A stretch of DNA of 64,000 nt from Echinostoma caproni (lineage: Eukaryota; Platyhelminthes; Trematoda; Plagiorchiida; Echinostomatidae), in the NCBI GenBank assembly GCA_900618425.1, contig UZAN01039997.1:29968-93967 (forward strand), given 5' to 3'. The stretch's first letter is position 1; every line of letters begins with the position of its first letter. Position numbers and translations under genes: made by a program. The notes beneath the pieces were generated by a model, which saw nothing but the letters and a program-made list of their open reading frames with translations, had not been told where the DNA came from and searched no databases. Positions 4,505 to 50,751 of the stretch are shown here, in pieces.

Positions 4505-4740
4505 AATTCTAAAGGTGAAATTCGTCGTGTATATAGCAAATGAAGCTGGAAAGGAAAAGCTAGGAAGCACTGTAAAGCTGTTTTTACCTGCTTGGGTCTC
4601 AATAGCAGTGCGAATACATCGAACAAGCTGGGGATCGAACTTGGGACCTCATGGGCAGAACGTGAGCACGTTACCCACTCGGCCACCGGGAAGCTGATTA
4701 GACCGTTTTTCGTCTTCCATTTACACGATATAGTACCACT
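4505..4740 (-). repeat. SINE family S1, copy a
   Basis: On the minus strand the unit opens with a short leader (AAAAACGGTCTAATCAGCTT). A tRNA-like head follows, with A box TGGCCGAGTGG (about 4674-4684) and B box AGTTCGATCCCC (4630-4641). Next comes a region shared with the copies at 14.9, 27.8 and 46.5 kb (GAGACCCAAGCAGGT, then CAGTGCTTCCTAGC) and a tail with ACGACGAATTTCACC. The shared region is a decayed hammerhead core. The 6-bp stem GCACTG/CAGTGC is intact, but CTGATGA has become CTATTGA and GAAA has become AAAA, so this copy should not cleave itself. It is the only S1 locus here without an inverted partner. Confidence 0.75.
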
Positions 4741-5847
4741 TATTATTACGACCTTGTGGCGGGCACTGCGCCTCGCTCCGAGGTTATGCCTTGGTTGGAA
4801 ACTTTCATAACCTGACCGCTTACTACATGAGAGTTGTAGCCTCTTTAACTTAAGTACAAGTCAAACAGATGTCTGTAAGATGCTTTCTCTACTACAGCAT
4901 TCCGTCTGTAAACCTTTGGGTAGTTCCCAAGAATCCGTTTGTTTATCTTTCACAATTATTCTTCAGCTTTTAAATCTATTCCATGATCACTTTTTACGCG
5001 AAAAGTACGCTCATTTGGTTACCCCATGTATTTAGTTGCAGTAGTGTAAAACTATTAATCGGGACAGATTCGAAGGAGAAGAGTTAACGGAACTGTTTTG
5101 TAATTGTAATCTATAAGTCCCATGTGCTTTAATTCCTGTTCCTACCACATACTTATATTCAACATTCATCCATGATCTACCCTTAATGCTCCCAGTTAAG
5201 ATCATTACATACGCTGATCGAGTGCTTCTATTTCAATTAATCTCAAGCCAACCTGATTAGAGGTCATGTTCGGACGGTTTATTATAAGTGCAAACATTCT
5301 CAAATAAATCTGAACAATTAGAAATGCTTTGAAAGCAGTTTACGTTTTGCGCTACTTATGTACACATTGAACTCTCGATTATACCTAAGTATGCGTTATC
5401 AAAAGACAAACCATGAAAATTACTATAGATTCATCAAAGAGATCAATCAACAGTGCTCCTCCAGGATGCAAACAGGTTTAGGTACACTACGTCCATTGTC
5501 CTTCCAGGAAAGCAAAATAATATAATTTAGAGTGGGAAATTCGATTCGATGTTCGTTCTTTATTTTTCCTTTGGGATTTACTCTAGTCCATTTGGAAAGT
5601 ATTTAATTTTGCGTTCTTTTTGCTTGGTAACTATGAACTTGCTTTTTATGTACACTCTAATTTTTAAAAATGTTTTTTTGTACATTCTCTTCTTATATAT
5701 TTCTCTATGAGCTTTGCAACGACCCAGGATATCCGTATTATTGCCGTTGCTTATCGAGTCAGCTGGGTAATAAATATCTCCACAATGGAAGGCTGATTAG
5801 AATAGTATTATGTGCAACAACAAAATTAATCTACCTGAACAGACCCA

Positions 5848-6132
5848 TCAGGCTACCGTGCTGCTTGCAAGAAGGGGGTGCGCGAGCAAGTTTGAACTCA
5901 ATCCCCGCAACTTTGCTGGTGGCTCTCTGTGCTCGCTTGCGGGTACTACATTATCGCTAACTGCAACACACAAGTGGCGGTTCCCGAAGAAACAGGGATT
6001 CATGTAACCGCACTTTGAACCATTTTCCTCCCCGAGCGATTTGGACGAAGGTCCGCACTTTTCAAACACGTTAACTCCACAGTTCATTTGGCGCTCGTCC
6101 ATCCAATGTGGTAGTTGTATCCATACATCCAA
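5848..6132 (-). CDS. Cysteine-rich 94-codon open frame, unassigned
   Basis: A minus-strand frame of 94 codons beginning MDVWIQLPHW and ending in ASSTVA. It has five cysteines spaced through residues 18-55 (NCGV, EKCGP, SKCGY, NPCFF, HLCVA). The stretch is clearly richer in G+C than its surroundings, and TTTATT at about 5559-5564 on the plus strand would be an AATAAA signal about 280 bases past the stop. I recognise no domain, and there is no signal peptide. It could be a small gene, one exon of a larger gene, or a GC-rich repeat that happens to be open. Confidence 0.3.
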   Translation of the reverse strand: MDVWIQLPHWMDERQMNCGVNVFEKCGPSSKSLGEENGSKCGYMNPCFFGNRHLCVAVSDNVVPASEHREPPAKLRGLSSNLLAHPLLASSTVA

Positions 6133-6330
6133 GTGATTGATTTGCCCAGTTCACAGAAATAACTTGAAATTCAATGCGAATATCTTTGTTCTGATAAGAC
6201 AAGTTTTAGCAAAAGGAACCGTTTCCAGTGTGATCCAAAACTTGAAGTCTAGTATGTTTGCTGAATGAAGAACGTTTGAAATTTAACTAGTTTGAACTAT
6301 TATTCTGGTAATGTTCGGCCGCTATTCTTT

Positions 6331-7622
6331 TCAGTGAAATAAAAGACATTGTGTTTTTTCATTAGGCATTTTCCTTGAAATTTGATTGGAATACTTGCGC
6401 TTGAAACAATTCGTATTATTCAGCCTCTTTACTCGAGATTGAATTAGTTTCGTTAAGCGAGAGTTCACATCCTCTCGAGGGATGAAAATAAATGTGTTGT
6501 TCAGAAGGAGTATAGAATGATAAATACCGATAATGTTCCATGAAAGCGAGACGGTTTTTATAGAAGTATTAAAATAATCGCTAATAGACCATAAATGATA
6601 GATCAATGCAAGATCAGAACTGAACCGTTCGCAAAAAAGCGCGCTAAGCAGAGAATATATTTCCCAACGTTGGTCACTATCAGATGCACTGTATGCCTAT
6701 TGCTCCACCTTTACTGCAGTTAACTTGTTGCCTAATTCTTCTCCTGAATGGCCTAAGATGAACGGTCCACTTGCTTTGGTTGTTTCAACTGCAAAACAGA
6801 CCGTAGGCCTCCAAGTGGATGGATCGTCAATGTCTCGGTGGTTTCCCAGGGTAGCCACTTTTATTGTAAATGGGCATGAAAAAGTAATACAAAAACAAAT
6901 TTTTATTTCTGCACAAACGTGGTGATGGAAAGCCCGTTTTTGCTCCACATACCACGAGGCTTGCAAAACACGCTATTGAGTGGATTTCTTGTTTTCTGGG
7001 ACTGATTTGTGATCTTCGTCACAACTTTGGCTTCCGTGTGCAGTTCTTATTCTGTATAGCTAGACTGAATACTCAAACCAGGGTTTTATTGTTTTGACAG
7101 CACCTTTTTCGCGTGAGCCCGAACAAGCAAATGTTTGGTGTGGTTTTAGGATATTTTTAGATAGTAAGTAAATTGATGGTGTTCATGGGCTGAAACAAAT
7201 TACTGAAACATTAAGTTTGTGGCTTAGAATATGTTTTCCATAAAATTTACGGATTTTCTACGAAATGAATGAGGAACAGCAAACCTATGCCTTTTGCAAA
7301 TGTATTGCTGTTTCAATGGAATCATCTAATAACAAATAAACAGAGTAGCCATGGTGAGCTCACTATGGTCAACCTTCGCAGGGCAGGTTTTTATCAACTA
7401 TTCATCCGTCGTGTAGTGTCAATCACCACTGAAAAGACTCATATGCACTGTACACATGTTTTGTTTTTGAGATCTAAAAGGGCTCTGCAAGAAGGAGTAT
7501 TAACTCAAATTAAGAACTGGTCACGCCCCCTTTCATACATCCACCGGAATTTTGGTCTTTTTCTGGAAGTCTGTTCTCGCCTATGGCTCCAGTTTCATTG
7601 TACGTTCGCCACGACAGGTGAG
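6331..7622 (-). CDS. Possible 3' part of a minus-strand spliced gene (3 exons)
   Basis: Three minus-strand segments join with consistent phases. Exon 7545-7622 follows a pyrimidine-rich acceptor (CCGAACTTTTCCAG) and ends CCG|GTGGAT. Exon 6715-6788 follows GGTCTGTTTTGCAG and ends TGCA|GTAAAG. Exon 6331-6471 follows TTTTCATCCCTCGAGAG and ends in a stop. The joined tail is about 96 residues, hydrophilic, with SWRTYNETGAIGENRLPEK in the first exon and a lysine/arginine-rich C-terminus (KRLNNTNCFKRKYSNQISRK). I recognise no family. Individual exons this short arise often by chance, so only the combination of three good acceptors and matching phases supports the model. A further candidate first exon lies at 7969-8148, but its phase does not join directly. 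Confidence 0.35.
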
Positions 7623-7968
7623 CTGGAAAAGTTCGGAGATAGCTGTGAGAATTAAAGTGACTGTAAAACATTCTTGTACTAAACCATTGTTTGTATTTAT
7701 TTGTATGAAATCCACAGATCCAAACGCGAATAGCAAAACTGAATAATATCATGGACGCAATTTTGCATTGAATTTGTGTGACTGCTTTGTGGGTTTATGC
7801 GTGACTGCCTGAAACATGAGTGTAAAGGGGATTTGAAATCACGGAGCCGACATCCGTTCTTTGAAGTCTGGCTGCTAAACAACGACTGGAGTACAATCTA
7901 CTTTTACATCACCACCCACCACTGTACATGGAAAGGCTCCATCTGACTGCTTGAAGAAGTTGACTCAC

Positions 7969-8148
7969 TCTCTGACAGGCGATAATGACGATGATTCTTA
8001 GGAGGCTGGGTACACCTTCTTCTATGGAATGGAAAAGCCTGGAGCTGACATTTTCGATGGGTTTCTGATAGGACGAAGCGAAGTTATGGGACCTTGCATA
8101 CTGGCCGCGTGACGTTAATTGTTTCTGTGTTTCTCCAAAAAGATTCAT
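7969..8148 (-). CDS. Candidate first coding exon, unassigned
   Basis: A minus-strand ATG at 8148 opens 60 uninterrupted codons that end exactly at a strong splice donor, CAGAGA|GTGAGT (exon end 7969). The peptide starts MNLFGETQKQLTSRGQ and closes with a hydrophobic stretch, SLLRIIVIIACQR, which could be a short membrane anchor. No domain is recognised. It lies just upstream, in transcript sense, of the three-exon model ending at 6331. It ends in phase 0 whereas that model begins with two bases of a codon, so at least one exon would be missing between them. Confidence 0.28.
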
Positions 8149-8339
8149 GGAGACGTTTATTTAGATGAATACCTTAAAATAGGAGGTGGTTGTTCTCATC
8201 CGGTGCAGTTACTAACTAATATAAACGGCTTTACGAGCGTGAGAACGAAATCACTGATGACGTATCTTCACCCACGCTGTCTGTGTTCCTGTTCTTAGGG
8301 ACCGTACCAATCAAAGAAATGGAATTTGGAATGTGATAC

Positions 8340-9805
8340 AGGGGAATTATTATTAAATGCACTAAACTTAGTCTGGGTTTACGTATGCTCATCAGAATGT
8401 CACGTGTCTACATTGGCTAACTATTTCTCCAACCGTCAGCAGTTCACACGGTACCAAGGTCGTATCTCTTCACTGCTGCCCTCCTCACAAGGTTTACTGC
8501 GAGACACTATTTTATCCCCTTTTTATTTTCTGCTTACATTTCATCTACGCCTGTGAGCAATTCTTTACTTCTTTTTAAGTATGCNNNNNNNNNNNNNNNN
8601 NNNNNNNNNNNNNNNNNNNNNNNNNNNNNNNNNNNNNNNNNNNNNNNNNNNNNNNNNNNNNNNNNNNNNNNNNNNNNNNNNNNNNNNNNNNNNNNNNNNN
8701 NNNNNNNNNNNNNNNNNNNNNNNNNNNNNNNNNNNNNNNNNNNNNNNNNNNNNNNNNNNNNNNNNNNNNNNNNNNNNNNNNNNNNNNNNNNNNNNNNNNN
8801 NNNNNNNNNNNNNNNNNNNNNNNNNNNNNNNNNNNNNNNNNNNNNNNNNNNNNNNNNNNNNNNNNNNNNNNNNNNNNNNNNNNNNNNNNNNNNNNNNNNN
8901 NNNNNNNNNNNNNNNNNNNNNNNNNNNNNNNNNNNNNNNNNNNNNNNNNNNNNNNNNNNNNNNNNNNNNNNNNNNNNNNNNNNNNNNNNNNNNNNNNNNN
9001 NNNNNNNNNNNNNNNNNNNNNNNNNNNNNNNNNNNNNNNNNNNNNNNNNNNNNNNNNNNNNNNNNNNNNNNNNNNNNNNNNNNNNNNNNNNNNNNNNNNN
9101 NNACGATATAATATTCGGAATGCCCTACCCCAACCCACCATTTCAAACCACTCTACAAGAAGACTTGTCAGAAATAGTTGAGTGGTCTCAACAAAAGAAC
9201 CTCCGCATGAACCCCCAAAATGTAATGATGTAATATTTTCCTTTTGAAAGGGCAAAAGGATGATGAGTTATCAAACGCCAGCCCACCTTTATCTATCCCC
9301 GGTGACCAGATGGAACGACAACCGTCTGTCAAATACCTTGGCGTTATTTTCAACCATAATCCCACCTGGTCTGACCACGTTAACGAGGTTTTCTGAAGGT
9401 CAGGAGGCTCACGTTTTATGTTTTACTTCTTAACTCACTTTCCATCCCAAACCATCTATTAAGGCGTTTTGCTTTTGCTTGCGTTTTGCCCCATTGGCTT
9501 TATCGGTCCCTTGATGTCTTCCCCGGTCTTCGTAACAGAGGCCTCAAACTCATTTCCCGATCCGTCAAGTTTCTGTCGGTTTATAGTCTCATACCAGGGG
9601 AACATTTGGCACAGTATGTGGTAACACACTACCTCAAGTCCTGTAAAACATTCTCCAATAATATTTGATCTGATATTTCCCATCCTCTGTATTCCGCCCT
9701 TAGTCAGTGTCTTTCTCACTTATCCACCCGTTCCACTCACAAACATGTAAAGACAGGCACTAAAGCTCACAGGCGCTCTGTTATCCCGTATCTCACCAGA
9801 TTTTA
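8340..9805 (+). mobile_element. Non-LTR retrotransposon (LINE) reverse transcriptase, broken
   Basis: The plus strand carries the middle and C-terminal part of a LINE reverse transcriptase. Before the gap: NYFSNRQQFTRYQGR, the motif-B region around SSQGLLRDTILSPF, and FKYA at 8574-8585. After the gap: DIIFGMPYPNPPFQTTLQEDL and IVEWSQQKNLRMNPQ. Further on, in other frames, come KYLGVIFNHN-like, LKVRRLTFYVLLL, NHLLRRFAFACVLPHWLYRSLDVFPGL and a tail ending RSVIPYLTRF near 9805. This order is that of flatworm LINE reverse transcriptases, where a new copy is made by target-primed reverse transcription. Several frameshifts and stops after 9230 show it is dead. The endonuclease domain and 5' end are not seen. 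Confidence 0.85.
8585..9102. other. Assembly gap (518 N)
   Basis: A run of N interrupts the LINE between TATGC and ACGATATAATATTC. The flanks would read YA-DD-IIF if only two bases were missing, so the stated gap length is probably an assembly artefact. Confidence 0.95.
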
Positions 9806-10386
9806 AAAACCATGGACTCGTTGCTGGGAATCTGCGCAAAATGCTATTCTAAATCAATCATAAACACCTAGGTATGCCATTGGACTGTGATGCTGTTGTC
9901 CATTTTCACGTCTTTGATTGTTCCATTATAATGTTTCGTCTCACTTTTTGTAGACCCACTGCTGTTATGTGGTTGCTGAATATCCACCTTTCGAGGTGCT
10001 TAGGGTGATTCCTTGACTTAACCCGACATCTTTCCTAGATCCGTATCTCGTATAATGAGTGAAAAAACCCTCCTCGGACTTCAATGTGGAATTGTTCAAG
10101 CCAAGTAAATAGAATAGTTTTTATATCGAATTCGGAACACAAGATTAAGTTACCATCATCAGTATGTTATCACTATTCTATGGATAATAATTGTTACAGT
10201 AACCACCCAGGATGAGAAGTTAGTTCATTGTCCGGTCAGGTGGGTTAAACTACTCCTCCAAGTAGTAAGTGTTCAATACAACGTCAGGTAATAAGCTTTT
10301 GTCATTTTGATACGTAGAAGATACATACATAGACAATATCCTGGGAAACATCAATTGTCGTAGTATATTTTTTATAACACCACTGT
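9806..10386. other. Short intergenic stretch
   Basis: I see no gene, RNA or named repeat between the end of the first LINE and the S2 SINE copy. Confidence 0.5.
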
Positions 10387-10617
10387 GTGATGAAAGACAG
10401 ACAAAGCGGACCCCATTATCACAAGGACCTGCTCTTCACCAATGGTAACGGCCAACCAAAGCCTTGGAGTGGCAAACCACATGAGGCCCCGCTAGGTTAG
10501 GCGTGCTATTGAACCGGACGATAGCAAATCTGCCTACCACCAAAGTTGGGTGGTGGTGGGGCTCTAACCTCGCACCACAGGGTCCAAAGCACACCGGTGA
10601 CAGCGACTAAACCAATG
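10387..10617 (-). repeat. SINE family S2, copy a
   Basis: Read on the minus strand, this unit begins TTGGTTTAGTCGCTGTCACCG. It passes through GTGCTTTGGACCC and a GGTTAGAGCCCC stretch where the other copy has a B-box-like GATTCAAGCTCC. The body contains GCAGATTTGCTATCGTCCGG, CACGCCTAACCTAGCGGGGCC and ATGTGGTTTGCC, and it ends near TCATCACAC. The copy at 18986-19236 matches throughout its length with scattered differences. The head looks tRNA-derived, but the A box is only approximate, so SINE is an inference. The repeat itself is seen directly. Confidence 0.7.
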
Positions 10618-10715
10618 TTGAGAGATATCAATTGCCTGTGTGGCAGTACTAATAAACAATAAAAGGAAACTGTTTATGTTTAAGAACTCAATTTCGAGTT
10701 TATTCCACTTTTCCA

Positions 10716-14020: not shown

Positions 14021-14741
14021 TACTTTTCAGTGTTGTCTGAAAATGTTAACCGTATAACTGCGGATTCCCCAGAGGGATACGCTCTAACTTGGCTCCAAAC
14101 TTACTAAGAATTAAGGATATAGTTTTTGAGTCGGTCAATCATTCAGTTAGTCTGCCAATCAGTCAAACATTCACACAGTCGGTCAGGCAGCTGATTTGTT
14201 TGTCTGTCTACTACAAGCTAATGACAATTGCTCAATTTTTACTATTTTGTCTGACAGTAAATTTCTAATACTCTATAGTTATATTGTTGTAAATTTTGAA
14301 TATTACTGATGGCTGCGGGATCAGATCTGATTGTCCACATATTAGGAATGCAGTGTCACCGGACCACTCATACTCATCATACCAAACAAGAAATGATCAC
14401 TTCTGACAAACGTACATCTTAATTGCAATAACTTGGANAAGTACGTTTCTCGAAAAGAAATCAAGTGCAGTCGCTGATAAATCATTTGATTATTGGGAAA
14501 TGAATGAAATAGGACCGTTTCGGAGGACCATTTTGATGCGTCAAATTTGAGCACACAACCGTATTTTTCAATCGTTTTTCATAAAAGACTAACTTTTGTC
14601 CCCATATCATGCTAAATAAGTTACAAAGTGTTGTCCATACTACTTCTTATTCAGTGGAAATTAAGCAAAACAATTGTGTTATATATTACTATTAACACTA
14701 ATATTATTGTTGTTATTAAGGTGCCCAGACGCTTTTATTAA

Positions 14742-14817
14742 GTGAATGACATGCAATCATCCTACTCAACTGATCATCCGGCAGCTGATCAGGCCGCTTT
14801 TATCTTCGTTGTACACA
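14742..14817 (-). repeat. SINE family S1, copy b, inverted head
   Basis: Minus-strand sequence AAAAGCGGCCTGATCAGCTGCC followed by GGATGATCAGTTGAGTAGGAT matches the leader and A-box end of the S1 family. Only the head is present. It faces away from the plus-strand S1 copy that starts about 15-50 bases to its right. Confidence 0.55.
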
Positions 14818-14829
14818 CCATAGCTCAAC

Positions 14830-15055
14830 CCATTTTCGCGATCTTAGTGCAGGCGGAGCAACTTGCGTACTTGAGCCCTGGACTCCACGGTTATGCGTCG
14901 GTTAGAACAGTTCAAATCTGGGTTCAATCCCTGGTCGGGTTGGTGGATTTACTCTGCTGAGGAGACCAAACCAAGTCAAAACCGATGGCTAGCAATTTCC
15001 AACTTTTCAGTTCACGCGGCATTTGTTGTGTACACGACGAAACTAACCATATGAT
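14830..15055 (+). repeat. SINE family S1, copy b, forward
   Basis: The plus strand has a tRNA-like head with B box GGTTCAATCCC near 14931. The family middle follows (TTTACTCTGCTGAGGAGACC, then AAGTCAAAACCGATGGCTAGC), and the tail TTGTGTACACGACGAAACTAACC. In the hammerhead part CTGATGA has become CTGAGGA and GAAA has become AAAA, and the flanking stem is lost, so it is a decayed copy. Confidence 0.65.
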
Positions 15056-16289: not shown

Positions 16290-16299
16290 TTGGAGGATT

Positions 16300-18480: not shown

Positions 18481-18490
18481 CAGATTTCAG

Positions 18491-21400
18491 TTTGTGGGGA
18501 ACCAGCGCCGCGTTATAGTGTTATTTACCGGAACCGGGAATGCAGCTGGAATTCACGTTGAAACCCAACATGAATTGTTACTCGATTTGTCGTTCATACA
18601 TTCCAGTTTAAAAATGAAGGTGATTCCGCAACCTTAAACCTAGAGATTGAACAACATTTGAGTTATTTTGACGGCCGATTGGTTTACTAGAAGAAGAATA
18701 ACTTGGTCATCAGATATATTTTCAGGGCTTTATCTACCGGCCAGTTATAACCTTTCATATAACACAGTGAGCGAGATATGGCTCTGAGGTAATTCCTTGT
18801 TATCGCCTAAAGATAGACCAAATGAAAATTTGGATGCAATTATTCTTAGGTTGATTGTTAGTAATCATTTGTGAATTAGATAAGTCACAATAAAATTTAG
18901 CAGCGGCCGGTTAAATACATGATTGTGGAAAATAAAAGCCCTCATTATTTTTGAGTGCATATTTTTTTGTTGCACACTTAGGTGTGATCAAAAAGAGACT
19001 GGGAGAGCCCCATAGTAACGATAACCTGCTTTGCAGTGATGGAAACCAGCAACCGAAGCCCTTTGACTTGGAGCGGCAAACCACATAAGGCCCTGATAGG
19101 TTAGGCGTGGTATTCAACCGGACGACAGTATAGCTGCCTGCCGCCAAAGTCAGGTGGCGGTGGCGGAGCTTGAATCTCGGACCATTGGGTCCAAAGCACG
19201 TCGGTGACAGCGACTAAACCACTGCACCACCACCACCGTTCCATCTGGAGAATATCGCCTCGGATCTAGGGTTCAGTCATCTTTTTACATTGAACTCCGT
19301 CGCCTGAGTGAAACAACCCCCGTACCTCAACGGTATCCTTCTTTTCGGGGTTCACATCTGTTCTTTTTGCTACTTGTCCTTACTACTACCGGACAGGGAC
19401 TTGGCGATGCGTCCAAGGTAGCCTAACGAGCCGGAGTATTTAAAATAGCACGCCTAAAATCAAACTATCCCGGATAAATGATTGTAAGCTATAACTGCGA
19501 TGCTCGCAGTGGTTTAACCCATCAGTAATAGTATTATTATGGTTATTACCCATGCGTGAATCGTTTTGAGAACAGGGATAAAGTGGATTGAGGAAATTGA
19601 AATCGCCGCATGTCTGTTTCAGATTCTTTGGGTAATGAATGTGGCACCGATCTTCCAACAGTACTTCAGACATATCACAAAATGTCAGACAACAGAAGGC
19701 AAGTTCGGTCACCACTCCAGCTCTAAACAAACACCTATAAACTGTCGATTCATGATGAAGCACTCTTCACCTTTCTACTATCTCTCTTTATCGGTTAGTG
19801 TCACCACTTATATGTAGTCTCGTTTCCTCTTACTAGCTTTCAATCTTGGATTCATTCATAAAACTGAAATTTCTAAGCGCGAAATGAGTTGTCACTGGTT
19901 TCTGCGTTTATTATCTCTAACACACCATACACTTTTGTTCACCTGTTAAACTAAATATCCATCAATAAAATGGAATTGTTGATAGGAATACTACAACATC
20001 GTCTGCTTTCTTTCAAAATTTCTTTAAAAGAAGAGTGATTTTTCTTGCCCTTAAAACAATGTCAAAACGGAAACAATCATTAAGAACAACGCTACCTGAC
20101 AAACAAGGTCTTTCTCATTTATTCACAATACCAGACATGGACAATTGCTGAAACTGTCAGATTGATTCGAGTCAAAATTCGATTGCATGTGTGCATGTGT
20201 GAAGATGATCCCAGGTTGAAAATTAGTTAGATAAAGTTCATTTCATCAGGGAAAGTTCAGTGCTCGCACAAATTGCTTTTGAACGCACATTGGATGATTT
20301 TTATGCGAGTAGTTACAGCCTCGGCTTCAGTCAGGTTGTCGGAACCTGACTGCGCTTCATAGCCAACTTTAAACATTTGAAATGAAGCAAAATAAAGTTA
20401 TCGCATTAAATGAGTTGTCAGACTCGGCGAGTTGCAAATATACCGCGCTTGTAGTTATCCTAATTGCTCATGTATTCAATCAAACCGGAAGTGTTTTATG
20501 AGTACGATCGAGCAATCTACCTGATCCTGCATAAACAGTTGAATCAGTATATACTGAACGAATCGGATAAATCCTANGTCTGTTAGTGCAACACAGAAAA
20601 TGGATTTGGGGTTGTCCAAACATTAAGTAGCAAATATGGTTTACATATCGGAATAGTTCTAAAATACATTCTTCCATACGGGGATAGTCCAGTAGGTGAT
20701 TTACAACTAAAACAATAACTTGGTTGATCGAGTAGTTACACCAGTGATAAGAGTGCATGATACCTCGCAACCCCTGATCAGTTTCATACCTTTTCCGTTT
20801 CACCGGTCGACTTAGACAAAAATAGCCTTCTACTTTTGGACAGAACGAACCCACGAGGACATGGTGCATGCCAATAATGTTCAGCCGAGGATAAAAATTT
20901 CGAAATGGATTTAGATGGATTGAACGGCGCGCAGTGAGGTTCGAAAAAAAGAAGCTCATATCAACGCAGTTGAACACTTCTGATGCACTGATTGTAAAGT
21001 AAATAATATTTTTACTGATATATAGTTTATTTTAAGTAACATACTGGAATGATGCAATATTCTTCTGAAGCACTGAACACGTAAAATACGATGAAGTACT
21101 TTTATCCTTCCGGATAGCAGCTTCTCGGTCATGGGTTTTCTTGTTTTGGTTAAAAATGAATCAATCCTAACAACTTTGTTCATTTTATCTTTTAAAAACC
21201 AGCGGGTATTGTTTGCATTTTTAAGCTATTTTTAGTCACTCAAGTTGGGATGGGACGCTGGAAGCTGAATATTCTTTTTGATTACTTCTGTAAAGAAGGT
21301 TGGCAGTATCTAGAGGATATTAATCATCACCACACCAATTCAGAATGTTTGATGTTTGGACCCCGTCACTGTTGTCTAACTTTCTGTTGAGTCACATACA

Positions 21401-27590: not shown

Positions 27591-27594
27591 ATGG

Positions 27595-27665
27595 TGAGTT
27601 TCGTCGTGTGAACAGAAAATGAAATGTGAACTGAAAATCAGGGAAGCACTGGACAGCTAGACAGC
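27595..27665 (-). repeat. SINE family S1, copy c, inverted 3' part
   Basis: On the minus strand the sequence AGCTGTCCAGTGCTTCCC, followed by a tail ending ACGACGAAACTCACC, is the 3' half of family S1. The bases just before CAGTGC read GTC, the classical hammerhead cleavage triplet. The 5' half of the ribozyme is missing here. It lies head to head with the forward copy that starts about 20 bases to the right. Confidence 0.6.
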
Positions 27666-27679
27666 ACATACTGTATGGG

Positions 27680-27840
27680 TAAAATGAGAAACAGTCTGAT
27701 CAGCTGTCAGGTGTCCCGGTGGGTATTATAGTTGTCTTCAGCCTGTGACGTCCCGGATTCGATCTCCACTTGGGTCGATGAATTGACATTGCTAGTGAGA
27801 CCCAACAAGATCAAGACAACTATTCAGATCACCACATTCC
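27680..27840 (+). repeat. SINE family S1, copy c, forward
   Basis: The plus strand starts AAACAGTCTGATCAGCTGTC, has B box GGATTCGATCTCC (27755-27767), then GACATTGCTAGTGAGACCC and AACAAGATCAAGACAAC, the decayed hammerhead core. CTGATGA has become CTAGTGA and GAAA has become AAGA. The first copies were found by comparing this middle section with the ones at 4.6 and 46.5 kb. Confidence 0.65.
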
Positions 27841-38200: not shown

Positions 38201-41200
38201 GCGTAGCCTCACCATGCATTAGTTTTATTGGTAAGAAAATCTAACCAACCCACTAACAATGAAAATATCACGAAAGGACCTGAAATGTCTATTCTCCATA
38301 TGGTTATTTGACGTTCAGCCCTTGCCTAGTTGGAAAGTTGAAGTGATATAGCCATGAGTTTACTGTAAAGCCTAATTTTTGGTTGAAACATCGTAGATCA
38401 AGGTGGAGTATAACACAATGGATGATACAACAAATAACTTCATAAAAAGATAAGGTGTTATATTGTGCCTGACAAATAAACACACAGAATCAGAAAATGT
38501 AGTATAAGCGTTCAAAACGTTTAGTTTACCCTATAAATACGGAAGAGTGGCAGAGCTGTTTGTCATCATGGTAATTCAGTAGCCGAACGCAATATACACG
38601 AATAATAAACTTGAAATCGGTATTAAATTAATTCCATAGCTTTTTGATTTTAACATTTAAAAATTATCAGTTTCTGGTTTCACTAGCAACAAAATGGTCG
38701 TTCACAGGAGACTCGANACATCTTCAGAAAATCGCCTCCTTGATCGTTTCGTAAAGAAAAATCTAGACCATAGATCATGTTATTACTCAAGGAACGTCAC
38801 AAAGAAAGAACGGTTCATTAACTTGTCATACAAGGCGGATGGTAGATCAGGTTCCTTCACCGAGCATCGAACAGCTGCCGTCAATGAAACATTCAACTCA
38901 GCCAGTTTGCTCTGCTTGTTTGCAGCCAGGGGGCTAAAGCTACACTGTCAAAAATTAATATATCATTTCATTTACACATCCAGGTCTCCTGAGATTGGCT
39001 GATCTGCAGGACAATGGTCTCAAAAGATTGAGGAGTATTCTTTAGGTTGGCTTAACCACAAATTACCCCAATCGCTATGTACTCATCGGTCAACACACAC
39101 TTGCTGTCGTAGAAAGGAAAACGATCCGTCTTCCCATCTGCCCCAATCGGACATCGGAACGACTCTAATCCAAAATGTGTAAAGTCTACGGCCTAATCAG
39201 GCAAAAGCATGTCAATTTGATCTCCCTCCAATCTTGAAATAAGTTATCCGGTCCATATGCCCCGAACCTATCTCGAGATATTCATTCCGTGTATGACATA
39301 GAGACACTGAGTGATATGGCTGGGTGTCGCAAACGATGGCACTCAACCATTATCCCTGCAACCCCAGTGTATTCAACTTCTCTGTCTTCTCTTTTATTAA
39401 ACGTGGAAGTGGTGAGACAGCAACTCAAACGGGAACACGAATTTGCATGGTTAACAATTATAAAAACTGACTGATTGACTGACTAGCTGGCTGGCCTATT
39501 GACTGATTGATTGACTGACTTATGAAGAATAATGGATGAATGAGGGAAAACAGTTATTAACTTGCAGATTCGTGTTTTACAATGCCTTGGTTTGTGAAAT
39601 TCACTCAGCTTTGTTGTTTGAAAAATGTACTCCATCTCTTATATCACGAAAAACAAGTCAGCATAACTGAGATTCAGTTAGCCACAAAAATGAGAATTTT
39701 AAGTTTACATCAATTAGCTTTGAGCTCTTTTAGCTTATCCACTGCGCTAATAAATCTGCTAGGTCATTCTAACCAATAACCGTTGAAAAAAGTAATCTGA
39801 TTGACCGATATTTCTTTAATGGAATATGATCATTCCATAATAACTAGCTCGGGTGAAAACTGATCAAAATTCAAAAGCAATTAGGCGGCATAGAATATAC
39901 AGAAAAACGGAAGGTTACGGACTATCGAAATTGCACAACAAAAATCCCCCAACCGTTCAGTTTAAAATCCATCTGCTCAAGGCACCGGTTCAATTTTAGC
40001 TTGTCTCGCAGTTCGCTTGAAGTCATTCTAAATGATTTCTTCCTGCAAATGGTTGTCATGTTCTTTTTCGCATCACACGTGTGTCTCATGCTTGTGTAAT
40101 CATTGTTAACACTATATCTCTGTGTTAACCGCATCTCAGTTTAAGATATCTTTGCTATGGGTATACGCATGCCAATTGGAAAAATTATCTGGTATTTCGA
40201 ACTTATAGTCCGTTCATCCACACATCAACCACCTTGGTTGGAGTTTTATTCGATTGATCTTGGTGATTGCAGAAAAGCATTGTGGTGTGATAGAATACAA
40301 AATAAATTGTACATGTGTGGCACACCACTCTATGTTTTGCTCAGTGTCGTTGAATGCAGTTGCCCCACGAGGGCAGTATTCCGTACAGTGAAAACGCTTA
40401 CGCGAACTCTCGCGCGAATGATTCAATGGTTTGTCTAAACCCTGTGTTGCATAGTGATTTATCTGCTCACATGACTATACCTGGCTCACATACAGGAGCA
40501 CGTTCGGTTTTGGGGATTGTAGGGGATTGAATTAGGGGCGCATTGCCTGGTCAGAGAAAAAAATCCCTGATTTCAAGGAAGAGACCTGATAGAGTTTTTT
40601 TGTGCATGTGGGTGTTTCTGAGCATCACCGAAATATTGAAGTTCAGCTCCCGGATTTGTGTTTTCTTTTGCCAGAATAACCTTCCGAATCCGAGCTTGAA
40701 TACTCAAAACTCTCCGAACTGTCTGAAGATGAGGATTCCTGTTCGTCCTCATAGTCTTCTTCATCCTCGGTAGCACTGCTTTCCTCTGGTGTATGATAGG
40801 AATGGAAAAATCCGGTTGACTTCATGTGATTTGCCTCGACAAGTAACGGAAGAAATTCTCGTGCTTCTTTGTTTTCCGGTTCTGTTTCCAAAATCTGTCG
40901 GCACAAAATCAAAGCTTGTGAGAAGTCTTGTGTCATGATACAATTCAAAAATTCGAGAAACAATTCCAGAGAGCCTTCGGAAGACATATCTCCACGTGAG
41001 CTGGTGCCTAACGACGATAGTGACGAGTTTTCAGCCGTCATCTGTCATAAAGCTAAAGTGATAAAGGCAAATCGTTCATTCATTATCCGGCCAATGACAA
41101 AGAAGGAATGGATAAAATATATTTCTTATTTTATTACTGTTATTAATATATATATATAATATATATTGTCTCTTCTACCAGTAAAGTATCAAATCCCCTG

Positions 41201-43497
41201 ACTACCGAGGTGTAAACAGTACTCACTGATAGAGTATCACATTTGGATTAGTCCATTCGATTGTTCAGGGACACCAGGCACTCTTGATGGTCTTGATGGT
41301 TCGAGTCCTGACAGGAACACAAAACGTACGCATTAATGATTAGTCCCAAACAGGACGAAACAGCTGACCGGTGCTCTTTGTCGGTCATCACAAATCTGTC
41401 GATCGTTTATAAATATTCGCCTTTGCACTTTAGGAAATGTTATTTGAAATTTGTTGTTACTAGTGCCCATCAAAGGCTGGTAGAGGGACATATGTAGATG
41501 AGGAAGTTAGGCGAACGTGGTGGCAATGGTGAAGGCCGAATTCAAACACAAAACCCCGAAACCACATTGACAGTGACTTGTAGCGTTGAATCCATACAAT
41601 ATTCTGATTGATAACATCGCAACAGTGTTGTGAAGATCTTTTTATTAAATTAGGTTTCTGTGAAAATGATAATAGCTGAATTCTTTGGGTGAACAAACTC
41701 TTTTGTGATCTCACTAAAATTGTGCCGGTGTTAAAAGCCCAGAAAACATGCAATCTTAAATCGAAATATGTGACAATGGGAATACAATAAAGCAAAGTAT
41801 AGAAAGGTATACGACGAGAATAGTAATTGGGAATGGTAAGAAGCTAAATTTTCCGGTGACGGCTAGTCTTACACGGTTCTGTTGTAAGAAACACAATTAG
41901 GGAATTACCGATCCGACACAACTAAATCCATGGATCAAACTAGAAGCATCAAACATGTGCTTATACACAAAAAAACTTAATCATTCGGGATATGTTTCCT
42001 TTGTTCATACCCAAATGAAATTGTTTTTTCTACAAACATTATTGTCCTATGGTTCCGTTGGCACACAGTTGGCACTCAGAGGAGTTTGAAGTAAATATAT
42101 TATAAGTTTCTCTCTATTCTCGTTCTTCAACATTTTTACCATACTTTGCTTGGAGAATTATGAATATAGCTTCATCAGACTTTTCAGTTTCCACAAATTA
42201 ATTCAAATTTTTAGGTGGGAAACTTGATGGGACTGTATGTTGCTTATTATGATCTCTTTTTTGTGTCTATAAATTACTCGAATATTGTGGTTCTTTTCGC
42301 ACGCAGCCGATGTAAGTTGGATAGTCGTTTGATAAAAAACAACAATTAGCTGCTATTTAGGCTATCCGCGAAATGACAAAATTGCAACCTCTGGCTGAAA
42401 TCGTAAACAACGCAGGTCACTTACTAGACGGACTGTATGCGTACCTATAATATGTATGTTATTTTTGGTTCTCTATTACGTTATTCAGTATTTGAGTGGT
42501 CCCATTCATCACATTTATGATGTAAATTTTGGCTATGCGATTTTTCATTACGCATTTCCCTATGACATCCAGGGCAAGGATTATTGAGCTCCCTTGATGA
42601 GCTGTGCTGTTTTTAATTAGGGCTGAAATATCCACCGGTGGTTAATAAAGTAATGTTGGGTTTGTAAAAAATGAGTAAAAGACTAGAAAGAAATTTCACA
42701 AGCATGACAAACAAATGAACAATGATATTCAATAAATTTTGTTCTCATGTATATTGCTGAAGGTTATAAAAGCAATTTATCTGTACTGTTAAATGACCGT
42801 AATCACTTTTATCCAGTTATTCATTTTCATTATTGTATGTCTTTTAATGCTCTAGTTACGCTTGGAGTGGAAATATGAGGCATTAGATATAGGAATTTTC
42901 TCCTTCTGACGTGTGTATATCGTTGTGAATTTGGTTTAGAGACTCATCATGCAGAGGCAGCATATCACTGGCACCACCAAAACGTCACTGATTCACTTTG
43001 CAGCAACCTTTTTTCTTATAGAAAACCAGAAATAGTGAAGATTTATCCATTTTTTGTGACGGCTTTATGGCAAATGCAAAAGAGTATGTGTCCCGTGTGT
43101 TTTCCTCCAGACAGCCGGGACATGTGTGACGCGTCATCAAATGGCCTTACGTGGTGTGCAACATTTGTTGATAAAAAAACGCTAGTTATGGTCATATTAA
43201 AATCTGGCATGAAGGTATGAAGAGCACTTATCATGGAATCGAAATACACAAGCTGCATCAGGTTTTTCGTCTAAGGACGTTGAGAGCAATATAGTCGACA
43301 GTTAGAAACAATGAGTGAAAAGTTTGGGTGTCACTATGGCTCTCGTGACCATTCTCAAACTCTTCGCAAATTTCGTTTCACTGCATTTAGCATTTCAGCT
43401 TTGTTACCACTCCTTGCAGCCTGAGTTTCTTGTCTACTCGTTCATCAGCATTCAGTTGAAGAGGCAGGCAAAAGAAGGCAACAAAACTTGTCAGTAG
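29270..43497 (+). CDS. Six-exon gene model, cysteine-containing probable extracellular protein
   Basis: Exons with agreeing phases: 29270-29424 (after TTTTTCACCTTTCAG; donor AAAG|GTATAA), 33662-33844 (after TTATTCGTCTGTAAG; TTGA|GTGACA), 34941-35038 (after GTTTTTCTTCGTACAG; GTCAG|GTTGAC), 37275-37489 (acceptor CGATAG or, less likely, 37300; CTCAA|GTAAGT), 43022-43214 (after CCTTTTTTCTTATAG; ATGAAG|GTATGA), and 43399-43497 (after TTTAGCATTTCAG, stop TAG; AATAAA near 43643). The 64- and 71-codon open exons are unlikely by chance. Protein features: DCPLLSPKFGSDYNDRGVSF and VSFKCSIPL resemble beta-sandwich extracellular domains, then SGYCKSACQ, RDCFDVSDW, an NGT glycosylation site, and MCPVCFPPDSRDMC. 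I cannot name the family. The 5' exons are missing. Introns of about 4.2, 1.1, 2.2 and 5.5 kb fit a large repeat-rich genome. Confidence 0.5.
30480..33660. other. Intron-like stretch without a supported gene of its own
   Basis: This lies between the first two exons of the 29-43 kb model. It holds a degenerate tRNA-like stretch near 30585-30660 (B box GGTTTCAGTTTCC) and short shared motifs (CCTTGTRCACTGACA at about 30955, 32395 and, weaker, 38465). Nothing else was recognised. Confidence 0.4.
32362..32409. repeat. Perfect 10-bp inverted repeat
   Basis: GTCAGTGCAC at 32362-32371 and GTGCACTGAC at 32400-32409 pair perfectly around a 28-base spacer. The left arm continues as GTGCACGGTGAAATA, similar to the end of the repeat at 49.8 and 55.0 kb (GTGTACGGTGAAAC). 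It may be the trimmed end of a mobile element. Confidence 0.5.
36004..36192. repeat. Near-palindrome of two 95-bp arms, each with a stem-loop
   Basis: The reverse complement of 36004-36097 aligns along its length with 36098-36192. The left arm reads GGTTATCCACGGGAACCGAA then ACGTCAGCGAATG, and the right arm reads GGTTACCCGCGGTAACTAAA then ATGTCGGTGAATA. Both end in TATAACATTC. Each arm contains a strong hairpin (right arm GTTACC-CGC-GGTAAC), and the right arm also has a perfect 12-bp stem, AATGTCGGTGAA at 36120-36131 with TTCACCGACATT at 36140-36151. On the minus strand the left arm has the order CTGA, hairpin, GAAAC, GTC, which resembles a degenerate hammerhead. It lies in an intron of the 29-43 kb model. 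Confidence 0.75.
38690..39275 (+). other. GC-richer patch, possible old coding or repeat fragment
   Basis: A 102-codon frame with one N (38694-39002) includes LLDRFVKKNLDHRSCYYSRN, and the following 270 bases hold further open segments in other frames (GLTTNYPNRYVLIGQHTL). The mosaic of frames suggests a decayed retroelement, but no diagnostic motif is present. Confidence 0.25.
39466..39520. repeat. Short tandem repeat, GACTGATT-like
   Basis: AACTGACTGATTGACTGACT and following bases consist of about seven imperfect GACTGATT/GACTGACT units with a GGCTGGC interruption. Confidence 0.7.
40245..40250 (-). terminator. Candidate poly(A) signal of the ERICH2-like gene
   Basis: TTTATT on the plus strand is AATAAA on the minus strand, about 395 bases past the stop of the ERICH2-like frame. 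It is the nearest canonical signal. Confidence 0.4.
40643..41041 (-). CDS. ERICH2-like: ERICH2-like protein (glutamate-rich protein 2 family), intronless
   Basis: A 132-residue frame starting at ATG 41041 and ending at TGA 40643. Residues 25-73 form two amphipathic helices (LELFLEFLNCIMTQDF, ALILCRQILETEPENKEARE). This matches the conserved C-terminal block of animal ERICH2, where a hydrophobic helix is followed by EPEN-x-EA-x-FLPL. Residues 85-122 are almost entirely Glu, Asp and Ser, as in that family, and the end is basic (GKRKHKSGS). Vertebrate ERICH2 is longer and is known mainly from testis and ciliated tissue; its function is unclear. The bases before the ATG (TTTATGACAG) could be an acceptor, so an upstream exon is possible. 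The gene lies antisense in the largest intron of the 29-43 kb model, which together with its single exon fits a retrocopy or a nested gene. Confidence 0.82.
   Translation of the reverse strand: MTAENSSLSSLGTSSRGDMSSEGSLELFLEFLNCIMTQDFSQALILCRQILETEPENKEAREFLPLLVEANHMKSTGFFHSYHTPEESSATEDEEDYEDEQESSSSDSSESFEYSSSDSEGYSGKRKHKSGS
41250..41335 (+). repeat. tRNA-like unit, possible SINE head
   Basis: GGTTCGAGTCCTG at about 41302-41314 is a perfect B box, and TTGGATTAGTCC about 50 bases upstream is a weak A box. No acceptor stem is convincing and the body matches no other repeat in the window. Confidence 0.3.
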
Positions 43498-43862
43498 GAA
43501 GTAAGTAGTTAGATCGAAGAACCTGAAACTAAACTAGCCGTGTCTGAAATAACTTTTCACTAATTTGACATTATATTTTCGACTAAAATAGGATCACTAA
43601 CGCAGATGCTTGTCGACCTTGTTCCAAATATCGGTAGTCCGATAATAAAAATGAATCAGCATCATATTATGTGAGGTCGTTTGAAAACGCACCGCTGGAG
43701 TCACTCGGGGCACCGTAGTAGTTCACATTCCCCCATTGGTAACTTCAGCTTCCAGCTCAGTAAGTGCATACTGATGATGATTTCCAGTTATTAGACCACT
43801 GGCGTACGTTTTAGACGGAAATTGTTTACAGCGACTTGTCTTATATAGTTAATTTGTTGCAT

Positions 43863-43868
43863 TTTATT
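43863..43868 (-). terminator. Candidate poly(A) signal of the small secreted-protein gene
   Basis: TTTATT on plus, AATAAA on minus, about 210 bases downstream of the stop at 44075. Confidence 0.4.
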
Positions 43869-44074
43869 TAAATAGATTCAAAAAGATGACGATATTGTCA
43901 TGTATAAAAGTACATAGGCATAAAATACAGATAACACCTTCAATTTCCGGTTCGATATTCAGAGTGAATGAATTGACATTGACTTTGGGCGAGTCACATC
44001 ACAGTGGGCAGACGGTTATGAGAATATTGTTTTAACCAATGGCCATTTTGCACACCAAGATCAGTTTTTTCACT

Positions 44075-44380
44075 TCATGCATTCATCAGCCTTGCACTTT
44101 CGGGGTGTTTGTGATTGGTGTCAATTCTCACTGCATTCGCTATGGCCAATACTCGATTTTTAATCCGATGAGGTCGTCGTTGAAGAATCTGACAGAAGGG
44201 ACTAAAGGTCCTGGCTAAGTTCACTATGATTTGACTCAACAAGGTGTAGACAGATTGCGCTTGATTCGCAACCAGGTCACATGAATCAATGCCCTGCTCG
44301 TGAGACCAATTTATGTTGTCCCATAGTAGCAAATGAATAATAGTAATAATAATAAGCGCCAAATGAGATCTCAGAAACAT
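44075..44380 (-). CDS. Small secreted protein, intronless, family unknown
   Basis: A complete minus-strand frame of 101 residues from ATG 44380 to TGA 44075. It opens with a textbook signal peptide: MFLRSHLALIIITIIHLLLW, one arginine, then about 14 hydrophobic residues. Cleavage is probably near residues 20-25. The mature part of about 78 residues has two cysteines (GIDSCDLVANQ and FSPFCQIL, 28 apart) that could form one disulphide, a long amphipathic stretch between them (AQSVYTLLSQIIVNLARTF), and a basic patch, QRRPHRIKNR. I recognise no family. Short signal-bearing single-exon genes are common among excretory-secretory proteins of parasitic flatworms, so that role is an inference only. An alternative is a first exon whose true C-terminus lies elsewhere, but no good donor interrupts the frame. 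It lies just past the end of the 29-43 kb plus-strand model and is transcribed towards it. Confidence 0.6.
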   Translation of the reverse strand: MFLRSHLALIIITIIHLLLWDNINWSHEQGIDSCDLVANQAQSVYTLLSQIIVNLARTFSPFCQILQRRPHRIKNRVLAIANAVRIDTNHKHPESARLMNA

Positions 44381-44399
44381 GAACTTAGTTCTTGAGTTG

Positions 44400-46450
44400 C
44401 CGACTTATGGTGGTGCCTGAACTCGTTTGTGAGATAAAGCTTATCCGCTTTCCATTTACCGCTGTTATCAACGTTCATATGATTTCAACTGTCAATGGTA
44501 GTCTTGCATAACGCAAATTCTTTCCGACCGCAATGGTGCGATCATTCGCCCTGTTGTATTCGTGTGTAACGGTCGCATTGTCCCACGATATAATTTGGTG
44601 TTTCCTGCCGTATTGTGCCAGTTAAGATGCAGAGAAATCTGCATTTGCATAAATCGAACAACCTAACCCTGTTGCGCCCTCTCTTCATGTTTACTTCTCG
44701 TTTATTTGGTTTTTGAATTTGTTGTCCAAAAACTGATCCGATAACGACTTTTAAGCATTTCTGACGTAGAATCTCTTTGAGAGTAGTATCACTCCAGCAC
44801 TTATTTTGTGCTCCGTTCCCGAAACGCTGAATAAAGTTCCTCTTTTACGTGATTACTATGAAACTTTTTGAAATAAATCTACGAACCAGATCACGGGGCT
44901 TTTCTGTTAACCGAGCGCCGATATGCACAAGTCTGGGAATGTTGTCCGGGTTCTATATTCTACCTCTGAAGTACACTTGATATTTGGGTGCGCATTGCAG
45001 AATGCTGAAGGAACTTGACTGATAATAATATACTCGATAATAAAACACAACATATCATCCACTTGTCCCCTTCATTGTTTACAATCATTATTATAAAATT
45101 GAGTTCTGTTACTCTCCAACATAACCATAAAAGCATCTACATTCAACGGGCTTAGTGGAGGGCCCGTCGTCACCCGATTCTTCTGATAATATATATTATC
45201 TTTGTAGCTGAATTGCATGTTATATTGAAACATAAGGCAAATGTTTCTAATCCCCCATTAGGATATTGATATCAATGTCGATATTTTCAGTGTGGGATAC
45301 TAATGATCACTTTTCCTTTGGTTTTAATATTGGTGAATAGTTAAGTAACTGGTGGCGTATTAGCAGTGGTAGACAAATCACTCCGAACAAGTCTGATTCG
45401 AGACAGTGTACGTTATTCGAAAAATAGAAACAGCTGCACGTATGGCTTGATGATATTTCAGGATGAATCACGCCAGTTATCGCAATAGATAGAAATAATT
45501 TAAATGGAGGCGTTTTAAACATCATAAGAAGTTATTTGGTTTCCAGGGACAAGACGAATTTCACTTGCTACTCTTTCTTTCGGTTGTTAAATACTCTTGT
45601 CGAATAGGGTAGAGCGAATTCCCCTATAGTTCTGTGTGCGTTGCACTAACTGTAGTACTAACACCTGGTAACACGGTACATATTGATATTCATCTGCAAC
45701 TGGCTACTTGATTGTCTATACAATAGAACAATAATTAAACGTACATTTTGGAGCTTACGTTTGAGTGTTTAGCTAAACAATTCAAAACCAGTTTCAATAT
45801 ATCTGTCTTCATACTGAAAACCAGGCGGTAAAGAGTTAACAATTGTTCCAGCCTTCATTTAAAAAATAGACTTTACTTAAACTACTTGTCTATAAATAAT
45901 TGTATTGCTACTTCACTCTGAATGTGCCACCATTCCATAAAAATTTCATCTCAAATTTGGCTTGTCGTCAACACTTGAAGCCAGACAAAATGTGCCACCT
46001 TCGATCGCTGTTGTTTATTGTTCTAAATCGTAAGAAAAGCTATAGCCAATAGGCTTGTTTCCAGTGCTTTATCACAGTTTATATCATACTGTCTGGTCAG
46101 GTAACTAGGCATTACAGAAAGTTTGCAGTCGTTCCTCAAAGGGTATTTGGGGTCGCATCTTGACCACAGAGCAAGTGATCAGAGTCCGCCTCCATGATCC
46201 ATCCCCTTGGCTTGAAAAGTGATTGGTAAAAGCACTCTATCTTCCATAGCGGTCATGATACTCAACAAAATCAATCACCACTCATTATTGACCCGTAATA
46301 ATGCGTATGTGTGATGATCTAATTGGGAGTACCATCAGGTTACAGAACTGAAAGGAGATTTTCTTTTCTCTTTCTATAAAGAATCCTTAAACGACCAAAC
46401 GTTATGATATAATTCCCTAAGGGAATTCGTTTTTTAAAAAGCAATCGAAG
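44400..46450. other. Intergenic stretch
   Basis: No supported gene. A perfect 16-bp palindrome, GATAATATATATTATC, is at 45185-45200. A 72-codon minus frame at 45307-45525 with a hydrophobic start was not convincing. Confidence 0.45.
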
Positions 46451-46454
46451 TGTA

Positions 46455-46545
46455 CACGGCAAAGTTCAGAAGCACTGGAAAGCTGTTTCGACCTTGTTGG
46501 GTCTCATCAGCAGTGCGAATCCATCTACCCAACTATCAGTCAGGT
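46455..46545 (-). repeat. SINE family S1, copy d, inverted middle part
   Basis: Minus-strand sequence running from GGATTCGCACTGCTGATGAG to CAGTGCTTCTGAAC is the hammerhead-bearing middle of family S1. The tRNA head is absent. A forward copy of the same family begins about 100 bases to the right, so the two form an inverted, head-to-head pair. Confidence 0.7.
46472..46516 (-). ncRNA. Hammerhead ribozyme core, type I-like with minimal helix III
   Basis: All conserved parts are present in order on the minus strand. Stem I 5' strand GCACTG (46511-46516) is followed by CTGATGA (46504-46510), then stem II GACC (46500-46503), loop CAACAA, GGTC (46490-46493), then GAAA (46486-46489). After a very short helix III (CAGCTTTC) comes the stem I 3' strand CAGTGC (46472-46477), perfectly complementary to the first. 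Cleavage would fall after the C at 46478; the triplet here is TTC, allowed by the NUH rule, while the copy at 27.65 kb has the classical GTC. Hammerheads cleave their own RNA at this point. Schistosome Sm-alpha repeats combine a hammerhead with a Pol III tRNA-like promoter, which is the same design. Activity of this copy is uncertain because helix III has a C-U mismatch. Confidence 0.72.
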
Positions 46546-46639
46546 TGTGAATGTTTTTAACTGAGTCGAAACCGCGGAGGCTAGCGATTAGAACAGCGAA
46601 GCGCCAGGCCCGCAACAAGCTCGCAAAGAAAGGTTATGC

Positions 46640-46830
46640 CATATCATATAGAAGAAAAATGAAAAACGGTTTGATCAGCTTCCCGGTAACCGAGTGGGTA
46701 GCATACTTGCGTTCTACCTGTAAGGTCCCGGATCCTATCTCCAGTTGGTTCGATTGATTCACCCTGCTGATAAGACCCAACCAGGTCAAAACAACTGTAC
46801 AATGTCTCCTAGCTTTAAAGTTCACCCTTA
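46640..46830 (+). repeat. SINE family S1, copy d, forward
   Basis: The plus strand has the leader AAAAACGGTTTGATCAGCTT, A box TAACCGAGTGG, B-box remnant GGATCCTATCTCC, then CACCCTGCTGATAAGACCC and GGTCAAAACAACTGTACAAT, and the tail TTAAAGTTCACCCTTAAATT. In the ribozyme part CTGATGA has become CTGATAA and GAAA has become AAAA, but the cleavage triplet reads GTA. A frame at 46551-46757 is only a chance open frame across this repeat. Confidence 0.72.
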
Positions 46831-46899
46831 AATTGTACGAAGAAATTCCCTCTATAAAATTGAATCAAATCCTCCATTAATCTCATGCTATGGTATAAC

Positions 46900-50750: not shown

Positions 50751-50751
50751 T

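Follow-up and report, generated by a model that had tools for sequence, protein, structure and literature searches.

A 64,000-nt stretch of the genome of the trematode Echinostoma caproni (assembly GCA_900618425.1, contig UZAN01039997.1, positions 29,968 to 93,967; hereafter the window) contains five decayed loci of short interspersed nuclear elements (SINEs) that carry a hammerhead ribozyme (HHR), at 4.6, 14.9, 27.7, 41.3, and 46.5 kb. They represent old copies of non-autonomous retroelements of SINE-like type, and three of the five are made up of two partial copies that point outward in opposite directions. From the structure of these and of related insertions across the genome, we propose that HHR-cut SINE RNA would be reverse-transcribed from both nicked target strands by the enzyme of a Penelope-like element (PLE), starting at two internal sites, with the two complementary DNAs (cDNAs) then joined head to head; we put the probability of this reading at roughly two in three. 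A sequence-only reading of the window had recognized related HHR-bearing copies at 4.6, 14.9, 27.7, and 46.5 kb; sequence comparison joins these four and adds the locus at 41.3 kb. The same reading overlooked the head-to-head, one-tail structure of the copies.

Insertion Structure: Head-to-Head Arms With One Tail

Positions with the prefix u refer to the 363-bp unit of the main family (family C), as defined from young genome copies. Adjacent arms were counted at loci L009–L075 and in the window (L029, L055, and L058 were dropped as duplicate or broken by runs of N): 36 pairs are minus-plus, that is, 5′ to 5′, two are plus-plus, one is minus-minus, and none is plus-minus. Composites make up 10 of the 20 loci with the first-listed GACC-type cores (L009–L028).

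The 3′ ends of the arms lie mostly at two places, ~u0–7 and ~u38–40, both of which finish in TGAAA in family C. The tail (u8–38, ~35 nt) was scored in 30 of the 36 composites (omitting L013, L044, L052, one L041 pair, and the window pairs at 14.9 and 27.7 kb); it is present on exactly one arm in 25, on both arms in none, and on neither in five. Eleven further composites carry the tail on one arm in ten cases and on both in one (L091). Thus, 35 of 41 composites are one-tailed, and at most one double-tailed copy has a P of 3.3e-6 under random tail placement, by which 8.2 would be expected. The structure recurs in family A, an independent element, for which 39 loci besides the query's own were sampled (self-inverted matches to q1–64 were removed, and some arms lie a few hundred bases apart): 21 are multi-armed, with 21 minus-plus, two plus-plus, one minus-minus, and no plus-minus neighbors, and exactly one tail is found in 14 of these 21.

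The flanks of 18 of 30 elements share an exact word of at least 8 nt, compared with 15 of 870 mismatched flank pairs; the shared words (8–13 nt) may include a few element bases. Examples are AATACGAATCT (L033), GAATACTGAATT (L022), AATTCTAGATAT (L083), and GAAATTTGCGGTA (L087). L033, L022, and L083 are composites lying inside shared flank words, which argues that both arms were inserted together. Two separate insertions (L084 and L086) have as their second arm an inner piece, u105/110–166, that ends at u166 (...GGAAAAT), where reverse transcription may have a third start site. Fold-back of a single cDNA was also considered, prompted by private variants common to both arms of L033; this idea is weakened, because across 26 composites the two arms of a copy resemble each other hardly more than they resemble the arms of other copies.

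A Genome-Wide Family Built on a 363-bp Unit

The genome searched was the window's own (426.5 Mb in 12,689 contigs). Complete 45-nt HHRs with no more than three mismatches number 1,435 (693 + 742), against 0 + 0 for a reversed-pattern control, and the core pattern CTGATGAN{4,30}GAAAC occurs 4,384 + 4,353 times, against 562 + 556 for its reversed control (an excess of ~7,600). BLAST with the 46.5 kb copy returned at least 103 matches (40 of 3,793 candidates scored), and BLAST with a young unit at least 104 (40 of 5,150 candidates scored); among the young-unit matches listed, eight places, including the query's own, are identical over all 363 bp. One exact HHR pattern had no match in viral and prokaryote collections. 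Absence of a genomic family beyond the window loci would have spoken against the sequence-only reading; the family is genome-wide, and its HHR is conserved (see below).

Young copies have the 363-bp unit, a GTC cleavage site, and A and B boxes. The A box is at u192, the B box at u236, and stem I at u267, and the cleavage site falls between u305 and u306. At L057, cleavage sites exactly 363 nt apart denote a head-to-tail tandem, and further tandems are present at other loci. A tRNA-like head for RNA polymerase III (Pol III) had been proposed from the window copies; this holds for young genome copies, in which ARAGORN made six tRNA-Gln(CTG) calls at four of ten family C loci tested (L034, L054, L056, and L057), but not for the window itself, where neither ARAGORN nor Rfam (run on the whole window and on three stretches of it) gave a tRNA call. 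ARAGORN gave no tRNA call in the ten family A and B loci tested. At L057, the HHR begins 7 nt past the end of the tRNA call. Transcription by Pol III and self-cleavage of the RNA are inferred. The unit has a single TTTT run, which begins at u320, 15 nt downstream of the cleavage site; a Pol III transcript might terminate at this run and so fall short of the full template, which makes it doubtful that Pol III produces the template RNA.

The ribozyme is classed as a type I hammerhead by its RF00163 score, its CTGANGA/GAAA core, its three helices, and covariation. Scores against RF00163 reach 49.9 bits at L014, L031, L054, and L057, and 50.3 bits at L070; helix III has 4 bp and no loop, matching the Rfam consensus. 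Three families with different flanks share this HHR, and they differ in helix II: GACC/GGTC in family C, GCTC/GAGC in family A, and GTCC/GGAC in family B. Families A and C have 88 nt in common, extending from the B box across the HHR (u231–318, 73%), and families B and C only the 44 nt of the HHR itself (u269–312, 89%). All four family A hammerheads tested (L007, L061, L062, and L063) resemble Rfam HH9 (RF02275), at 31.7–35.8 bits, below the cut-off; HH9 is a family described from vertebrate introns. The family A head (GGCACAGTGG ... AGTTCAAATCCC) is tRNA-like by eye, and ARAGORN made no call on it in seven loci.

Covariation was assessed on 59 distinct 45-nt HHRs from all loci, picked by core and spacing alone. 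Paired cells amount to 83.9% of 826, against 33.7% at most in slid-structure controls. Cells changed on both sides of a pair number 67 (shuffled mean 22.4, sd 3.7; 0 of 500 shuffles as high), a count that kinship among copies can inflate, the independent events being the three families; the covariation score is 0.298 (0.147 in shuffles). Ten pairs show a double change at least once, a number that does not exceed the range of the shuffles (mean 8.4; reached in 81 of 500). The sequence-only reading considered covariation directly visible among the window copies, which is true of the 41.3 kb copy (GTCC/GGAC in place of GACC/GGTC) but not of the others; a clear signal needs the genome copies.

A Proposed Penelope-Like Route of Mobilization

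The published insertion signature of PLEs comprises, in the accessible part of one account, an inverted pseudo-long terminal repeat (pLTR), a target site duplication (TSD) of 8–9 bp, and a tail of 31 bp carried by a single arm (PMC3846280). In structure, the SINE insertions agree with this signature: they have 5′-to-5′ inverted arms within one target duplication, and a tail on one arm. Excerpts of a study of an Anolis PLE report that both target strands are cut and extended, that reverse transcription starts at two adjacent internal sites matching the genomic tail (a feature called unique to PLEs), and that insertion in vitro did not need HHR cleavage (PMC11167929).

By the route proposed here, the starting RNA would be a transcript of a single unit or of a tandem, and would be cut by its own HHR; since helix III lacks a loop, cleavage could take place between two RNAs. 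A PLE protein would bind the HHR and the tail. Two staggered target nicks ~10 bp apart would each prime on RNA at one of the two internal sites, and these two start sites would leave one arm with the ~35-nt tail and the other without it. The two cDNAs would extend towards the 5′ ends of the RNA and would then be joined head to head. The authors of PMC3846280, in the portion of the text consulted, prefer self-priming on an antisense template, unlike the route outlined above. A broader claim, that of a fluke SINE superfamily with a shared central HHR and different heads and tails, moved by PLE reverse transcriptase rather than by a long interspersed nuclear element (LINE), with some of the templates having their 5′ end set by cleavage, we regard as an even bet.

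The window contains a broken element of Penelope-like appearance at 50750–53013 (+). Its reading frame is broken, its RVT_1 match is weak and below the Pfam cut-off, and its 224-nt inverted arms are 98% alike; these arms duplicate an inner part of its coding region. A genome search with the reverse transcriptase piece from the window gave at least 152 matches (150 of 4,344 candidates scored), and, at the protein level, the PLE reverse transcriptase piece gave 89 candidates, none at E 0.001. Similar arms are present in other PLE-like copies of the genome: L096 has a perfect palindrome of 110 nt as well as a repeated end (4139–4201), L101 has 166-nt inverted arms, and L099 has direct repeats.

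Several observations weigh against the Penelope-like route. At ten PLE loci drawn from the 152 matches (L096–L105; four long copies and six upstream parts), there is no above-threshold HHR and no SINE tail at the PLE ends. SINE-like stretches are found in two of the ten, L097 4272–4390 (family A, E 1.8e-8) and L096 4478–4650 (family B, E 4.7e-8). The latter, in which 4610–4656 scores 20.6 bits as an HHR, is taken for a nearby SINE copy because it lies beyond the repeated PLE end; the stretch in L097 is probably also a nearby SINE copy apart from the PLE. Among the composites, L091 (which adjoins a run of N) is tailed on both arms, and L032 is a possible second such case (by BLAST ends, both arms u28–33), which would lower the one-tailed count to 34 of 41 and give a P of 2.4e-5. 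Family A has tails on both arms in 4 of 21 loci and an arm ending elsewhere in 3 of 21. No flank word of at least 8 nt was found in 12 of 30 pairs, and arms within a composite have a likeness of 0.851, against 0.833 between composites (0 of 10,000 permutations; 26 composites). Finally, the frequency of composites is biased, because most came from BLAST with a composite query.

Template Form and Alternative Explanations

The 5′ ends of 49 arms from 29 loci are not uniformly distributed: 12 fall in u306–345 (5.4 expected), 12 in u238–270 (4.5), 15 in u1–65 (8.8), eight in u66–237 (23.2), and none in u294–305 (1.6). The P values for these counts are not tests, because the windows along the unit were picked after viewing the data and the search favored long copies. 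The ends in u306–345, just past the cleavage site, are suggestive of cut RNA as the template or of a folded HHR that would halt the enzyme. Those in u1–65 lie about one full unit from the u38–40 end, the distance expected if a circle were copied once. Arms also often start at the 5′ edge of the HHR (u238–270), which neither cleavage nor a circle explains.

These 5′ ends bear on the possibility that the element is a retrozyme proper, in which the template would be an RNA circle made and ligated by the HHR and copied for one or more rounds by any reverse transcriptase. Such a template is compatible with the Penelope-like route, and we hold it tentatively, at somewhat below even odds. The head-to-tail tandems with cleavage sites 363 nt apart, the inserts that exceed one unit and differ in their 5′ ends (401–454 nt and 646 nt among them), and the excess of ends just past the cleavage site all speak for it; however, a tandem transcript left uncut, or cut only once, would yield the same inserts, and the cleavage site fails to explain the clusters of 5′ ends in u238–270 and u1–65.

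An ordinary tRNA-derived SINE with a hammerhead, mobilized by a LINE, would account for the tRNA-like head, the frequent 5′ truncation, and the shared words in the flanks, with head-to-head copies arising by twin priming or by later nested insertion. We consider this unlikely. When twin priming occurs on a single RNA, the 5′ part of the insert is inverted, and two outward-facing 3′ ends are not produced, and nested insertion would give tail-to-tail arms as often as head-to-head ones, whereas 0 and 36, respectively, were observed. The two alternative 3′ ends, with the tail mostly confined to one arm, also count against LINE mobilization. By eye, there is no A-tail in the flanks examined, and no search for LINEs was made.

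Even less probable, by a wide margin, is a short inverted-repeat DNA element, similar to a miniature inverted-repeat transposable element, with a hammerhead in its terminal repeats by chance. The outer arms are indeed inverted and lie inside shared flank words, but arm lengths and junctions vary between copies, many copies are single-armed, tandems of the 363-bp unit occur, and divergence between the two arms of one copy is almost as great as between arms of different copies. A terminal inverted repeat reading of the 46.5 kb locus was rejected on the same variable junctions and arm lengths, the common single arms, and 5′ truncation. Chance resemblance of unrelated decayed repeats to a hammerhead, which the damaged or sub-threshold state of every window HHR except that at 46472–46516 might suggest, is negligible in view of the E value of that HHR (1.6e-7) and of the 1,435 genome copies against none in the control.

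Copies in the Window

The 46.5 kb locus consists of head-to-head arms at 46424–46534 (−) and 46535–46887 (+). The short arm is an inverted partial copy (u249–359) without head and without 3′ tail, and it holds the single above-cut-off hammerhead of the Rfam scan of the window, a type I hammerhead at 46472–46516 (−) that matches Hammerhead_1 at 42.5 bits. Its catalytic core is intact, as the sequence-only reading had stated, and stem I is perfect in two copies as that reading claimed, with six pairs here and also in the 4.6 kb copy. One helix III pair is broken, because TTC replaces GTC before the cleavage site. The intact core had been placed in a headed unit; instead, this good HHR lies on the headless arm. 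The tRNA-like head at 46.68–46.75 kb is part of the long arm, which runs through a whole unit, from u41 round to u35, and also includes a damaged HHR and the 3′ tail. An A-box-like block, gtaaccgagtggg, at 46686–46698 (+) corresponds to the unit A box at u192, and a decayed B-box-like block at 46730–46740 (+) to the unit B box at u236; the damaged hammerhead, at 46761–46805 (+), scores 23.2 bits, below the Rfam cut-off.

The 4.6 kb locus is a single-arm copy at 4519–4834 (−), covering u27–359 with 78% identity to the unit; the head is retained, and the HHR core is broken (CTATTGA). Its A-box-like block (4675–4687, −) and B-box-like block (4631–4640, −) were read from the sequence. The decayed 14.9 kb composite has one arm at 14753–14914 (−; u54–216, spacer and partial head) and a second at 14920–15041 (+; u236–357, decayed HHR). 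In the 27.7 kb composite, the second arm, at 27672–27827 (+), covers u153–308 with head and decayed HHR, and the short arm fragment is at 27600–27658 (−). The GTC triplet noted earlier at 27.65 kb is present in that fragment, but the fragment is 59 bp long (u299–357 only) and lacks the CTGATGA/GAAA catalytic core. At 41.3 kb, a decayed family B hammerhead (41329–41375, +) is present as HHR only, with GTCC/GGAC in helix II and 27.2 bits, below the cut-off, for 41330–41374; a B-box-like block ahead of it (41298–41308) was read from the sequence. A- and B-box-like blocks precede the HHR in the arms at 4.6, 27.7, and 46.76 kb, as had been claimed, but no window copy combines an intact HHR core with the tRNA-like head.

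Other Features of the Window

A second dispersed repeat of ~155 bp is present at 10463–10617 and 19067–19224 (83–85% alike). A frame at 34–303 (−) resembles by eye what we take to be a fragment of a mariner-type transposase. The 133-aa frame at 40643–41044 (−) has homologues named glutamate-rich protein 2, with identities of 86% in Fasciolopsis buskii, 82% in Fasciola hepatica, and 68% in Calicophoron daubneyi (over 66, 72, and 60% of the length, respectively); these identities place the source as a fluke close to the Fasciolidae.

Comparison With Known Systems

Knowledge of hammerhead-bearing animal repeats dates back to 1987 for the newt and to 1998 for the schistosome, according to dates in reference lists. 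The sequence-only reading suggested a family related or parallel to schistosome Sm-alpha, which is upheld by the 363-bp unit, the tRNA-Gln(CTG) called at four of the ten family C loci tested, and the covarying type I HHR. The fluke element resembles the Sm-alpha/Sj-alpha repeats of schistosomes in its tRNA-derived head, type I HHR (RF00163), similar unit size, and high copy number, a likeness drawn from the Rfam HHR consensus and published descriptions. According to the accessible parts of the relevant papers, Schistosoma mansoni copies called tRNA-Gln-TTG resemble Sm-alpha and the S. mansoni genome has >38,000 HHR matches (PMC2770079), and the 335-bp W-element is strongly similar to Sm-alpha (PMC8490949). 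The element described here differs in its fluke lineage, in tRNA-Gln(CTG), in stem I (GCACTG/CAGTGC), and in having two further families with other flanks; moreover, its head-to-head, one-tail structure is not met in the available portions of those Sm-alpha accounts (PMC2770079; PMC8490949).

Metazoan non-LTR (long terminal repeat) retrozymes (RNAs of 170–400 nt), as described in excerpts of two papers, likewise have small tandem units bounded by a type I HHR (PMC7229834; PMC7761336). The fluke element differs in that it has a recognizable tRNA head and that its insertion structure is read directly. The same excerpts show that PLEs were named strong or likely mobilizers of non-LTR retrozymes in 2020, from co-occurrence (PMC7229834; PMC7761336). 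Searches of the open-licence literature found no fluke HHR SINEs or retrozymes with head-to-head inserts named as such, and, as far as that literature shows, structural evidence from insertions for PLE mobilization is new.

The closest structural parallel is with PLEs that have HHR-bearing pLTRs, which, in the parts of the accounts consulted, share the inverted arm, partial tandems, a TSD of 8–9 bp, a ~31-nt tail on one arm, and internal starts of reverse transcription (PMC3846280; PMC11167929); unlike PLEs, the fluke SINE has no coding sequence, and its HHR stands behind a Pol III type head. The head-to-head arms, one-arm tail, and short flank words give direct genomic support to the suggestion of PLE mobilization, and schistosomes, corals, and salamanders are further groups in which the PLE-type signature of arms and tail can be looked for. 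If the Penelope-like route is correct, these elements would represent a class of SINEs independent of LINEs.

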